A stretch of 64,000 bases of DNA from Oscillospiraceae bacterium. Its GTDB lineage: Bacteria; Bacillota; Clostridia; Oscillospirales; Ruminococcaceae. The position numbers and the translations under genes were made by a program. Numbering within the stretch: position 1 is the first letter of the stretch; every line of letters begins with the position of its first letter. The notes under the pieces were generated by a model. It had not been told where the DNA came from. It saw nothing but the letters and a program-made list of their open reading frames with translations, and did no database searches. This document shows, in pieces, positions 52,850 through 60,429 of the stretch. Where the stretch lies: positions 1 to 64,000 of the forward strand of contig JAAVIC010000002.1 of the NCBI GenBank assembly GCA_014799385.1. Direction: 5' to 3'.

Positions 52850-54028
52850 TTAGTGATGGAACAGGCGGATTCCCGTAAATGCCATCGCGATTCCGTACTT
52901 GTCGCAGGTTTCGATTACGTTGTCATCACGGATTGAACCGCCGGGCTGCGCGATGAATTCCACGCCGCTCTTGTGTGCGCGCTCGATGTTGTCTCCGAAC
53001 GGGAAGAACGCGTCCGAGCCGAGCGCAACGCCCTTCATTGTGTCGAGCCACTCGCGCTTCTTTTCACGGGTGAATACCTCGGGCTTAACCTTGAAAATCC
53101 TCTGCCACTCGCCCTCGGCAAGCACGTCCATATAGTCATCGCCGATGTACAAGTCAATCGCGTTGTCGCGGTCGGCGCGGCGAATATCGTCCACAAATTG
53201 CAGATTCATTACGGTAGGGGACTGGCGCAGATACCAGTTGTCCGCCTTTGTTCCCGCAAGACGCGTGCAGTGGATTCGTGACTGCTGACCCGCGCCGATT
53301 CCGATTGCCTGACCTCCGCACGCGTAAGCCACGGAATTGGACTGCGTGTATTTCAGCGTGATCATTGCGATTGCAAGGTCGTGAATTGCGCTTTCGGGAA
53401 TCTCCTTGTTCTTGGTGGGGCGGTTCGCGAACAGCGCGTCATTGATAACAAGTTCGTTTCTGCCTTGCTCGAAGGTGATTCCAAAAACCTGTTTGCGCTC
53501 AATCGGGTCGGGAACGTAATTCTCGTCAATCTTGATGATGTTGTATGTTCCCTTGCGCTTGGATTTGAGAATCTCCAGTGCCTCGGGCTCGTAATCGGGC
53601 GCGATAACTCCGTCCGATACCTCGCGCTGAATGATTTTCGCCGTGGGAACATCGCACTTATCGGACAGCGCAATGAAATCCCCGTAGCTGGACATTCTGT
53701 CCGCGCCGCGCGCTCTCGCATATGCGCAGGCAAGAGGGGAGAGTTCCCCAAGGTCGTCCACCCAGTAGATTTTCGCGAGGGTTTCCGTCAGCGGAAGTCC
53801 GATTGCCGCGCCCGCCGGGGAAACGTGCTTAAAGGAAGTCGCCGCGGGGTAGCCCGTTGCGGCTTTAAGCTCCTTTACAAGCTGCCAGCCGTTGAACGCG
53901 TCCATAAAGTTGATGTAGCCGGGCTTGCCGTTCAACACCTCGATGGGCAGTTCTTTGCCGCCCTCCATAAAGATACGTGACGGCTTTTGGTTCGGGTTGC
54001 ACCCGTACTTGAGTTCCAGTTCGTTCAT
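52850..54028 (-). CDS. purH: Phosphoribosylaminoimidazolecarboxamide (AICAR) formyltransferase, stand-alone (no IMP cyclohydrolase domain)
   Basis: ELKYGCNPNQKPSRIF, TSFKHVSPAGAAIGLPL, SDGVIAPDYEPEALEILKSKRKG, GIGAGQQSRIHCTRLAGTKA; only 392 aa. Confidence 0.92.
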   Translation of the reverse strand: MNELELKYGCNPNQKPSRIFMEGGKELPIEVLNGKPGYINFMDAFNGWQLVKELKAATGYPAATSFKHVSPAGAAIGLPLTETLAKIYWVDDLGELSPLACAYARARGADRMSSYGDFIALSDKCDVPTAKIIQREVSDGVIAPDYEPEALEILKSKRKGTYNIIKIDENYVPDPIERKQVFGITFEQGRNELVINDALFANRPTKNKEIPESAIHDLAIAMITLKYTQSNSVAYACGGQAIGIGAGQQSRIHCTRLAGTKADNWYLRQSPTVMNLQFVDDIRRADRDNAIDLYIGDDYMDVLAEGEWQRIFKVKPEVFTREKKREWLDTMKGVALGSDAFFPFGDNIERAHKSGVEFIAQPGGSIRDDNVIETCDKYGIAMAFTGIRLFHH

Positions 54029-57753: not shown

Positions 57754-58470
57754 TCACTTGTTTTTGTTGATGATACGGCTCTCGAATTTACCCGTTTCAA
57801 GGTCGATGTAACGAGTGAACAGAGAAACCTTGTTGTCCGCGTTGAGGTTGTTCCACATGAAATCGGTGAACTCATTAAGGCTCATATCGGGAATAACAAC
57901 GTCCTTCGGCTCGCCGACAAAGCTCGGAAGCCTGCCGTTCTCCTCATCACCCGCGTATGTGTGAATAAAGCTGCCCTCGCCGCTTATCGGGTCGGAGTAA
58001 GCGAAGGTGAATCGGCGCGTGGATTTATCGTTTCCGTTCGCGGACTTGAGAATCGACATTGCGTAATTCATACTGTTGTCCTCGAGATGTACGATTCCCG
58101 AAATTCTCGGAGTGAAATTCGGAGCGTCGTCCTCAAATGTGCGGCAGCGCAGCGATTCCTCAAAGGTCATCTGCTTGTCCATTCCCGCGTAGATCGTGTC
58201 GGTCTGGTCGCCGTTGGTGACGATGGTCTTGTTGCCGAGAACCCGCACGGGCGCGTAAATAATCAGGTGCGGGTCGGTCATTTTGCTCTCGTCAAACGCT
58301 TGTGTGCGGATTCCGTCCCCGTCCCCAATAAAAACGCGGTTGCGGCTGTTCTCGCTGCGCCCCATAATAAAGTACGCGATAACCGCCTTTTTGCCGTTCG
58401 GCGACTTGCCGATAACGATTCCTCTGCCGTGATAAGCCAGAGAGTTGAGTTCCTTGTCTAATGTAATCAT
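57754..58470 (-). CDS. purO: IMP cyclohydrolase, archaeal PurO-like family
   Basis: LAYHGRGIVIGKSPNGKKAVIAYFIMGRSENSRNRVFIGDG; MGRSENSRNR motif region; start at 58470 next to GGAGG. Confidence 0.85.
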   Translation of the reverse strand: MITLDKELNSLAYHGRGIVIGKSPNGKKAVIAYFIMGRSENSRNRVFIGDGDGIRTQAFDESKMTDPHLIIYAPVRVLGNKTIVTNGDQTDTIYAGMDKQMTFEESLRCRTFEDDAPNFTPRISGIVHLEDNSMNYAMSILKSANGNDKSTRRFTFAYSDPISGEGSFIHTYAGDEENGRLPSFVGEPKDVVIPDMSLNEFTDFMWNNLNADNKVSLFTRYIDLETGKFESRIINKNK

Positions 58471-58490
58471 TTTGATTTCCTCCATAAATA

Positions 58491-58665
58491 AAGGCAACAC
58501 CGCACAAAGACCGCCTAACGGCTTTGCACGCATCTTGCTTGCATATTTTCCGTCATTTTCGCCCAAAACTCCTCGAAATACGTCAGTATTACTTCGTCGT
58601 TTTGGGCAATCTGACGAAAAATCTGACTGCGCAATATGCGCACAATCTTTGTGCGGTGTTGCCTT
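58491..58665. mobile_element. MITE-like non-coding element, 175 bp
   Basis: Perfect 20-bp terminal inverted repeats AAGGCAACACCGCACAAAGA / TCTTTGTGCGGTGTTGCCTT, flanked by AAATA on both sides (58486-58490, 58666-58670); internal GCCCAAAAC/GTTTTGGGC palindrome. Confidence 0.88.
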
Positions 58666-58731
58666 AAATACCTTAAAACCGTCCCGGATAACAAGACGTT
58701 TTGCACTTCACCGCCCGTAACTTACTGCGGA

Positions 58732-59247
58732 TTATACAATACCGGTCCTGTCAACGTCATTCACGAAATTCCACACTTTGTCGGGCGGGAAATTATCCCA
58801 CGCGCCGCAGCTCTCAAACGGACCGAGGTAGACGAGCTTTCCGTCAAGTATCGTAATTTCCAGACCGTGTTCGACTTCCCAAGTGCAGCCGCACTCCAGA
58901 TGAAATCCTATTCCATCGCCCTCGGGTTTGTCCACGATCAGCACCGACGGATAAATTTCCGTTTTGATTTCCTCGGCGGGCATATCCTCGGTGACATCAA
59001 TGCTCATCTCGTTCCAATCGTCCCATTCATCGCCGCAAATGTCGATGAAATATAAGCAATACCGCTTAGCCGCCTCCCAGATCGCCTGTACGGTTTCCTC
59101 CGGGAGATTTTGCAGGGATTCGGCGCACTTTTCGGCATACTCAATGTCCGCACCATCATACAGCTGAACCTCTATCACCTCGCCGAACAGTTCCCAATCG
59201 AACGAGCCTTCAAGCCCGTATTCGCCCTCAAAAACATCAGTAATCAT
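58732..59247 (-). CDS. Hypothetical protein, possibly DUF6985-like
   Basis: FEGEYGLEGSFDWELFGEVIEVQLYDGADIEYAEKCAESLQNLPEETVQAIWEAAKRY...GCTWEVEHGLEITILDGKLVYLGPF. Confidence 0.65.
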   Translation of the reverse strand: MITDVFEGEYGLEGSFDWELFGEVIEVQLYDGADIEYAEKCAESLQNLPEETVQAIWEAAKRYCLYFIDICGDEWDDWNEMSIDVTEDMPAEEIKTEIYPSVLIVDKPEGDGIGFHLECGCTWEVEHGLEITILDGKLVYLGPFESCGAWDNFPPDKVWNFVNDVDRTGIV

Positions 59248-59797
59248 ATTTCCTCCCAAGCTCTTTTATCCATTCGGGGGCATTTTCGCCGAATGTGATT
59301 ATTTCGCCGTTTTTGTATTCTCCGACTTCAACAAAGCCATTTTCGTTGTCTATAAAATGAACCTCGTCACAAAACGGAAGTATGCGTAAAACGTCCTCGA
59401 AACGCTTGTTAAACCGCCTTGTTACATCGTCCCTCGGAATATCGTGTCCGCCCTTACGCACACGGTTTTCAATTCGTGAAAGGCTTTCGGAAAGCTCGCC
59501 CACGGCGACATAATACAGCCGTACATAAAATCCGCGTTCTCTTGCGGTTTTTATTGTTCTGAGAGTTTTCGCCCCCGACAGCGTTGTTTCTTGCGTAAAG
59601 TTAATGCCGTTTTCAAGGCACTCGGAAATCCTTTTAACGGCTTCTTTACCACCCTGTAATTTATCGCCGCCAAGCCTTGCCGTTATGCGGTCGGCATCGA
59701 TTATAATCCCCAAATCCGTTCGCGATAAATTAAGAGAACCGTAAAGGCTGCTTTTTCCAACACCATTTACACCGCCTATAATCGTGTAGGTTTTCAT
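59237..59797 (-). CDS. P-loop kinase, zeta-toxin-like family
   Basis: YTIIGGVNGVGKSSLYGSL (Walker A), IIDADRITARLGG, FTQETTLSG, FYVRLYYVAVGELSESLSRIENRVRKGGHDIPRDDVTRRF. Confidence 0.85.
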   Translation of the reverse strand: MKTYTIIGGVNGVGKSSLYGSLNLSRTDLGIIIDADRITARLGGDKLQGGKEAVKRISECLENGINFTQETTLSGAKTLRTIKTARERGFYVRLYYVAVGELSESLSRIENRVRKGGHDIPRDDVTRRFNKRFEDVLRILPFCDEVHFIDNENGFVEVGEYKNGEIITFGENAPEWIKELGRKYDY

Positions 59798-60429
59798 TGT
59801 TCGCTGTCCTCAACGTATGCCTTACCGTCTCTAATCGTAATTCTGTCCTCGCAGAACAGCGAAACCGCCTTTGGCAGCAGCTTCCATTCAACATTTTCCA
59901 TTATTTTTTTCTGGAGAGATTCGGGAGTTTCGTCATTGGCAACGTTCACCGTACCTTGGAGGATAATCGCGCCCGCGTCCGCTTTTTCGTTGACAAAATG
60001 GATAGTCGCGCCCGATACCTTCACACCGTATTCCAACGCGGCTTGGTGAACCTTCAGTCCGTAGAATCCCTCGCCGCAGAAGCTCGGAATCAGAGCGGGG
60101 TGAACATTGATGATTTTGTATGGATACTCGCGTGTTACACATTCGTCCAGAATCGTCATAAATCCCGCAAGCACAATTAAATCAGCGTTTTGACGCTTTA
60201 ATTCCGCAAGGATCGCCTCGCTGTATGATTTGCTGTCGGTGTAATTCTTACGGGGAATTACAACGCTTGGGATTTCGTTCTGTTTCGCTCTTTCAAGCGC
60301 GTAAACATCGGGCTTGGAGCTTATCACACAGGTGATTTTTCCTCCCTTGATTTCTCCGCGCTTTTCCGCGTCAATAAGAGCCTGTAAATTGGTTCCGCCG
60401 CCCGAAACCAACGCGACAATGTTTTTCAT
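59794..60429 (-). CDS. purN: Phosphoribosylglycinamide formyltransferase
   Basis: VALVSGGGTNLQALIDA, DLIVLAGFMTIL, KIINVHPALIPSFCGEGFYG, GVKVSGATIHFVNEKADAGAII. Confidence 0.96.
   Translation of the reverse strand: MKNIVALVSGGGTNLQALIDAEKRGEIKGGKITCVISSKPDVYALERAKQNEIPSVVIPRKNYTDSKSYSEAILAELKRQNADLIVLAGFMTILDECVTREYPYKIINVHPALIPSFCGEGFYGLKVHQAALEYGVKVSGATIHFVNEKADAGAIILQGTVNVANDETPESLQKKIMENVEWKLLPKAVSLFCEDRITIRDGKAYVEDSEQ

Follow-up and report, generated by a model that had tools for sequence, protein, structure and literature searches.

A short repeat in the leader of purO is very probably a non-autonomous IS5-family MITE that inserted at this gene, carrying a selected hairpin core that occurs across a bacterial order and would have moved between several IS5 ends. 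The window, that is the whole stretch of DNA analysed, comprises 64,000 bp of an Oscillospiraceae genome. The features at the locus are as follows.

58493–58663, minus strand: MITE, 171 bp; the strand with the conserved fold is the purO sense strand; delimited by boundary and target duplication statistics (37 and 77 copies) and by the empty site of a sister species
58493–58510, plus strand: terminal inverted repeat (TIR) GGCAACACCGCACAAAGA, TIR type A; the same ends occur on the autonomous IS5-family elements L209, L473 and L477
58646–58663, minus strand: second TIR, the exact reverse complement of 58493–58510
58489–58492, no strand: 4-bp target duplication on the left, TAAA, differing from TTAA by one substitution; from duplication statistics and the empty site
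58664–58667, no strand: 4-bp target duplication on the right, TTAA; from duplication statistics and the empty site
58524–58645, minus strand: conserved structured core, model R1 (123 positions), common to elements with other ends; 131.5 bits, E = 2.2e-27, and covariation
57754–58470, minus strand: purO, IMP cyclohydrolase, PF07826; Pfam E = 2.4e-68
58470–58468, minus strand: purO start codon ATG, with a GGAGG ribosome-binding site at 58483–58479; from the sequence

The original prediction was of a 175-bp MITE-like element with perfect 20-bp inverted ends and a duplicated AAATA. The inverted repeat was confirmed, AAGGCAACACCGCACAAAGA at 58491–58510 being the exact reverse complement of 58646–58665; no match to this end with up to 3 mismatches was found elsewhere in the 64-kb window, and none in 100 shuffles of the window. 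The predicted length and true ends required correction. When every register was scanned over 37 copies, the family boundary was found to be GGCAACACC...GGTGTTGCC with a duplication of 4 bp, which was identical in 21 copies and agreed at 83% per base, while most other registers and lengths yielded 0–1 matching copies of the 37. Among 77 copies of 165–200 bp in a wider collection, 54 had an identical 4-bp duplication with the consensus TTAA, and 4-bp words taken from the remaining registers under test agreed at no more than 0.33 per base. The outer AA/TT of the 20-bp repeat therefore belongs to the target, leaving an element of 171 bp with an 18-bp TIR. AAATA does flank both sides at purO; the pair is coincidental, since the copy statistics and an empty site identify the duplication as TTAA. 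Assignment of TTAA to the TIR was considered and rejected, as other tetramers are duplicated at individual copies (ATAA at L062, TAAA at L064, TTTA at L011 and TTAG at L068), and their presence on both sides indicates a true duplication. The two duplicates at purO are equal at three of four bases, and the insertion lies 9 bp upstream of GGAGG.

The focal assembly (2.69 Mb) contains 13 full-length copies of the element at 78–100% identity, in addition to fragments, and a search for the 20-bp terminus yielded 46 matches at up to 3 mismatches, compared with 0–1 for the reversed pattern. Absence of other copies and of empty sites, which was to count against a mobile element, is thus not the case. 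By DNA similarity the MITE was detected in 27 of the 37 genomes from the host genus, against 0 of 24 belonging to other families within the same order. Named records with the same 20-bp end were mostly Ruminococcus, including R. flavefaciens FD-1 and R. albus AR67, on which basis the host is taken to be a Ruminococcus; a plasmid search gave no match. Minimal elements of 33–46 bp were also observed (L097, L100, L112, L127, L133, L137, L162, L189, L199, L308 and others), consisting of two fused TIRs with 4-bp duplications that were exact in 12 of 21 cases. The 46-bp form resembles a deletion between GCACAAAG and an inner GTGCAAAG repeat. Another dispersed repeat, containing GACTAGTGCAAATTCAAAACGC, adjoins the MITE copies L004 and L010 on contigs 3 and 1 of the focal genome.

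In the sister species G065, approximately 94% identical at the DNA level, the purO site is empty and has a single TTAA. It reads GATAT-TTAA-TTTGTGGAGG in the purO sense, against GGTAT-TTAA-[element]-TTTA-TTTATGGAGG in the focal genome, from which it follows that the duplication was TTAA with one later substitution. The sites of the copies at argR/recN and proB/proA are likewise empty in G065. The proposed check for empty sites was thus borne out at three loci, the one at purO with a single TTAA, not AAATA. Multiple copies, target duplications, the empty purO site and autonomous elements with the same ends all bear out the reading as a MITE. G065 has a methyltransferase-like gene directly upstream of purO (L297), the 3’ end of which was seen in many other Ruminococcus; in the focal genome (58668–58740) deletion has left roughly the final dozen codons of this gene, some 60 bp from the MITE. 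Within the purine gene cluster, a DUF6985 gene (58732–59247) and a zeta-toxin/AAA-like gene (59237–59797) are placed between a purN-like gene (59794–60429) and purO. The end steps of purine synthesis are apparently split between purO (57754–58470) and an AICAR-formyltransferase-like protein (52850–54028), with no fused PurH.

Its position in the leader, together with one terminator-like stem and T-run on the purO sense strand (58647–58625), could be taken to indicate that the element is a fixed cis-regulatory RNA of purO, such as a leader, attenuator or terminator. This is very improbable. The MITE was absent from all 29 other purO leaders of the host genus, inspected up to 240 nt from the start, and from that of G065; it is dispersed genome-wide and has no Rfam match. 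The alternative that orthologous loci retain a fixed structured RNA consequently fails, conservation of structure being found only at the level of the mobile family, and an ancestral purO regulatory element is refuted. Intergenic copies between tandem gene pairs were 20 sense and 21 antisense in the host genus, and 11 sense and 15 antisense beyond it. This lack of orientation preference argues against cis-regulation as the reason for conservation and leaves a cis-regulatory role at purO unsupported. A conserved intrinsic terminator was similarly rejected, as the stem lies inside the MITE and its sequence varies between copies. Peptide coding, after the manner of the Rickettsia palindromic elements, is hardly credible, even though the elements contain fewer stop codons than dinucleotide shuffles (8.5 against 12.3 per element) and more fully open frames (1.6 against 0.75). 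One-base indels between copies break the frame and the open frames are scattered over all six; the original prediction likewise saw no coding capacity. Changes in the apical stem track the base pairs, few of the copies fall within ORFs, and avoidance of TAA and TAG would also fit avoidance of the element's own target.

Autonomous partners were identified by a DDE_Tnp_1 search of the host genus. L209 (genome G023) is flanked on each side by TTAA, has type A ends and encodes a transposase that scores above cut-off against NF033581 of the IS5 family (E = 1.1e-81); it contains a run of N, so that its length is uncertain. L473 and L477 (genome G271, family f24) are whole contigs of 1133 and 1126 bp with type A TIRs at both ends, L473 possessing an intact InsH-like frame of 325 amino acids. 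A transposase gene with matching ends, which had been proposed as a check, therefore exists in relatives; the focal genome has decayed remnants only, as broken pieces of a type A transposase on contig 5. With no intact transposase in the focal assembly, the purO copy may now be immobile. Recurrent ORFs beside unpaired TIRs included no clear transposase. Genome G291 carries eight type D MITEs with exact 4-bp duplications, and an intact IS (L474) with type D-like (B/D) ends and an IS5 transposase (E = 4.2e-87). A type C-ended IS (L233, genome G015) encodes a transposase approximately 30% identical to that of type A. At least three distinct IS5-family transposons thus share ends with MITEs bearing the same core. 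Like the IS5 (InsH) group of the IS5 family, the cognate elements have NF033581/PF01609 transposases with an DSTIISAPSSTKN..KKGN..FG.KAHIGVD block, GG-type ends and TTAA-like 4-bp duplications; the focal MITE differs in having no transposase and an interior unrelated to that of the IS. The IS5 group uses YTAR targets, with which the TTAA-like 4-bp target and the GG ends agree.

The core extends further than the ends. A covariance model, R1, built from the core matched 31 of 43 genomes of the host genus, with up to 63 copies each and 30 in the focal genome, and 61 of 297 genomes of the order, representing 38 of 148 genera. A phylum-wide draw of 398 genomes gave 3 matches, all within the same order, with none among approximately 390 genomes outside it, which provides a strong specificity control for R1. 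In core-only matches the same hairpin is enclosed by different matched pairs of TIRs, GGAAGCACTGATTAAATC (type B) and GGTCACCTCTAAAAACC (type C), with TTAA-like flanks. Distant copies exhibited further end types, e.g. GGAACCTCTGAATAAATC, TGGTTCAGATGTCAAAAG, GGTGTATCTGAAAAC and GGGTACCTCTAAAAACCC; exact 4-bp duplications flank several of these copies. In all, five or more types of matched TIR enclose the core, and three of these types match IS5-family transposons in relatives.

Variants of the core were also encountered. Head-to-head pairs occur in genera g26 and g28 (L402, L414, L461 and the matches on C3 and C32 of G073), the copy at L461 having no recognisable TIRs, and in G011 three copies (L356, L357 and L358) contain extra sequence inside the core loops with both arms intact. 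The core was also present, at 75–79% identity, in the unannotated human faecal phage records MT835572.1 (24995–25105) and MT836531.1 (2960–3059); such phages could be a vehicle between hosts.

Symmetry in the interior of the element, noted in the original prediction, was substantiated by a predicted folding energy of -93.8 kcal/mol for the purO-sense strand (z = -11.8). Alignment of 48 full-length copies gave 55 pairs, 32 of them with compensatory double changes. Cells were paired at 96.6% compared with 83.9 after shuffling, double-change cells numbered 303 against 94 shuffled and at most 94 slid, and covariation was 0.373 against 0.146 ± 0.006 shuffled and at most 0.097 slid. Among 34 mostly distant copies, 35 of 36 pairs were compensatory and covariation was 0.665 against 0.185 ± 0.012 shuffled; this alignment was fitted to R1, which favours pairing, and it also supplied the shuffled and slid controls. 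The observed pairing and covariation values were reached by none of 500 shuffles for either set, and slid controls were far lower. Unpaired motifs are conserved, e.g. CGCAGG/CAAGG flanking the apical stem, and unmatched internal loops are kept across the order. No match to the element or core was found in Rfam.

The two strands are not equivalent. Mean folding energy was -88.7 for the purO-sense strand and -65.2 for the other, the former being lower in 48 of 48 copies, comparisons that are not independent owing to shared ancestry; DNA parameters gave the same preference in 48 of 48. Wobbles in the 48-copy set comprised 225 G-U and 26 A-C cells (32 and 6 columns, respectively), and in the distant set 134 and 11 cells. 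When pairs were chosen independently from both strands the excess shrank to 29 G-U against 9 A-C cells, the bias thus stemming partly from the choice of structure. Between close copies, 91 differences were Watson-Crick to G-U and 19 Watson-Crick to A-C. Retained changes were C>T (53) and A>G (37), compared with G>A (8) and T>C (12). Because C>T and A>G would not both be promoted by one directional bias in mutation, the pattern is read most simply as selection for folding of one strand. On sequence comparison, the prevalence of G-U on one strand implies such selection, acting on RNA or single-stranded DNA.

Several processes could have maintained the fold. One reading, a little short of probable, is that the core, moved as cargo by various IS5 ends, works as a structured RNA whose folded transcript is either recognised by some protein or undergoes RNase processing. 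Covariation, the G-U excess, the conserved unpaired motifs CGCAGG/CAAGG and the retention of both C>T and A>G on one strand all point in this direction; no promoter of its own is evident, pairing starts within the TIR, and the orientation of copies to genes is random. Random orientation would suit a role at the DNA level, and the same strand preference with DNA parameters (48 of 48) is consistent with a fold selected as single-stranded DNA, for example in replication or transposition. REPINs are hairpin elements moved as single-stranded DNA. Such selection is nonetheless unlikely here, given that both the ends and the 4-bp duplications are typical of DDE IS5 elements, which are not known to depend on single-stranded DNA hairpins, and the G-U excess would make RNA the more natural reading. 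Long inverted repeats do undergo quasi-palindrome correction, and cruciform extrusion or template-switch correction without any selected fold would also explain the matched replacement of TIRs at both ends. Maintenance solely by such DNA processes is quite unlikely, as these predict perfect palindromes and equal numbers of G-U and A-C mismatches, whereas unmatched internal loops are conserved across the order and G-U is in strong excess.

Within the open-access literature (subscription journals fell outside the search), no report was found of this element, of Ruminococcus MITEs, or of a structured core common to an order and carried by different ends. The MITEs of Porphyromonas gingivalis and BrickBuilt have TIRs that match full-length IS5-family elements (PMC4596501). 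They resemble the present family in these IS5-matched ends and differ in being confined to one species, neither an order-wide core nor different ends having been found reported (PMC4596501). ERIC, Correia/NEMIS, YPAL and RUP are small mobile repeats (~100–200 bp) whose transcripts form long stem-loops, those of NEMIS being proposed substrates of RNase III (PMC2229807). They share this size and form with the present family, with different sequences and hosts (PMC2229807); here, unlike in ERIC-type repeats, one core is retained under changing TIRs, and it shows covariation throughout the order and wobble specific to one strand. QMITE1 and QMITE2 of Coxiella are likewise MITEs whose hairpins are very stable, and some of them are transcribed into small RNAs; they have other target duplication lengths and are reported from one species, and no swapping of ends was found described for them (PMC5896051, PMC10969869).

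Taken together, the data favour a non-autonomous IS5-family MITE with a selected core over the alternatives above. The target duplication, empty site and cognate IS suggest that the transposase of an IS5-group element with the same GGCAACACCGCACAAA ends, acting in trans, placed the MITE in a TTAA between the stop codon of the upstream gene and the ribosome-binding site of purO, duplicating 4 bp. Insertion probably postdates the split from the nearest sequenced relative. The interior is not filler, since compensatory changes have preserved a hairpin core of ~123 nt throughout the order; this core appears to have moved among the ends of a number of distinct IS5-family transposons. One strand was probably selected to fold, most likely as RNA, and given the random orientation of copies to host genes, the fold most likely serves the spread or persistence of the element rather than regulation of purO. 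In the purO leader the element is predicted to be transcribed as a long hairpin, the effect of which is probably modest.

On balance, the core probably represents an undescribed family of ~123-nt structured RNA or single-stranded DNA that is multicopy throughout one order of gut and rumen bacteria and spreads as cargo, with TIRs repeatedly exchanged and different IS5-family transposases mobilising the same fold. MITEs are usually defined by their ends, the middle being regarded as leftover; here the middle would be the part that lasts and the ends the part that can be replaced. The selected component, the fold of one strand, would thus be separated from whatever moves the MITE, which may be any of several transposases, and the reason why bacterial MITEs fold becomes a testable question. 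The covariance model can be used to detect a structured element that is abundant in gut Clostridia and has gone unannotated.
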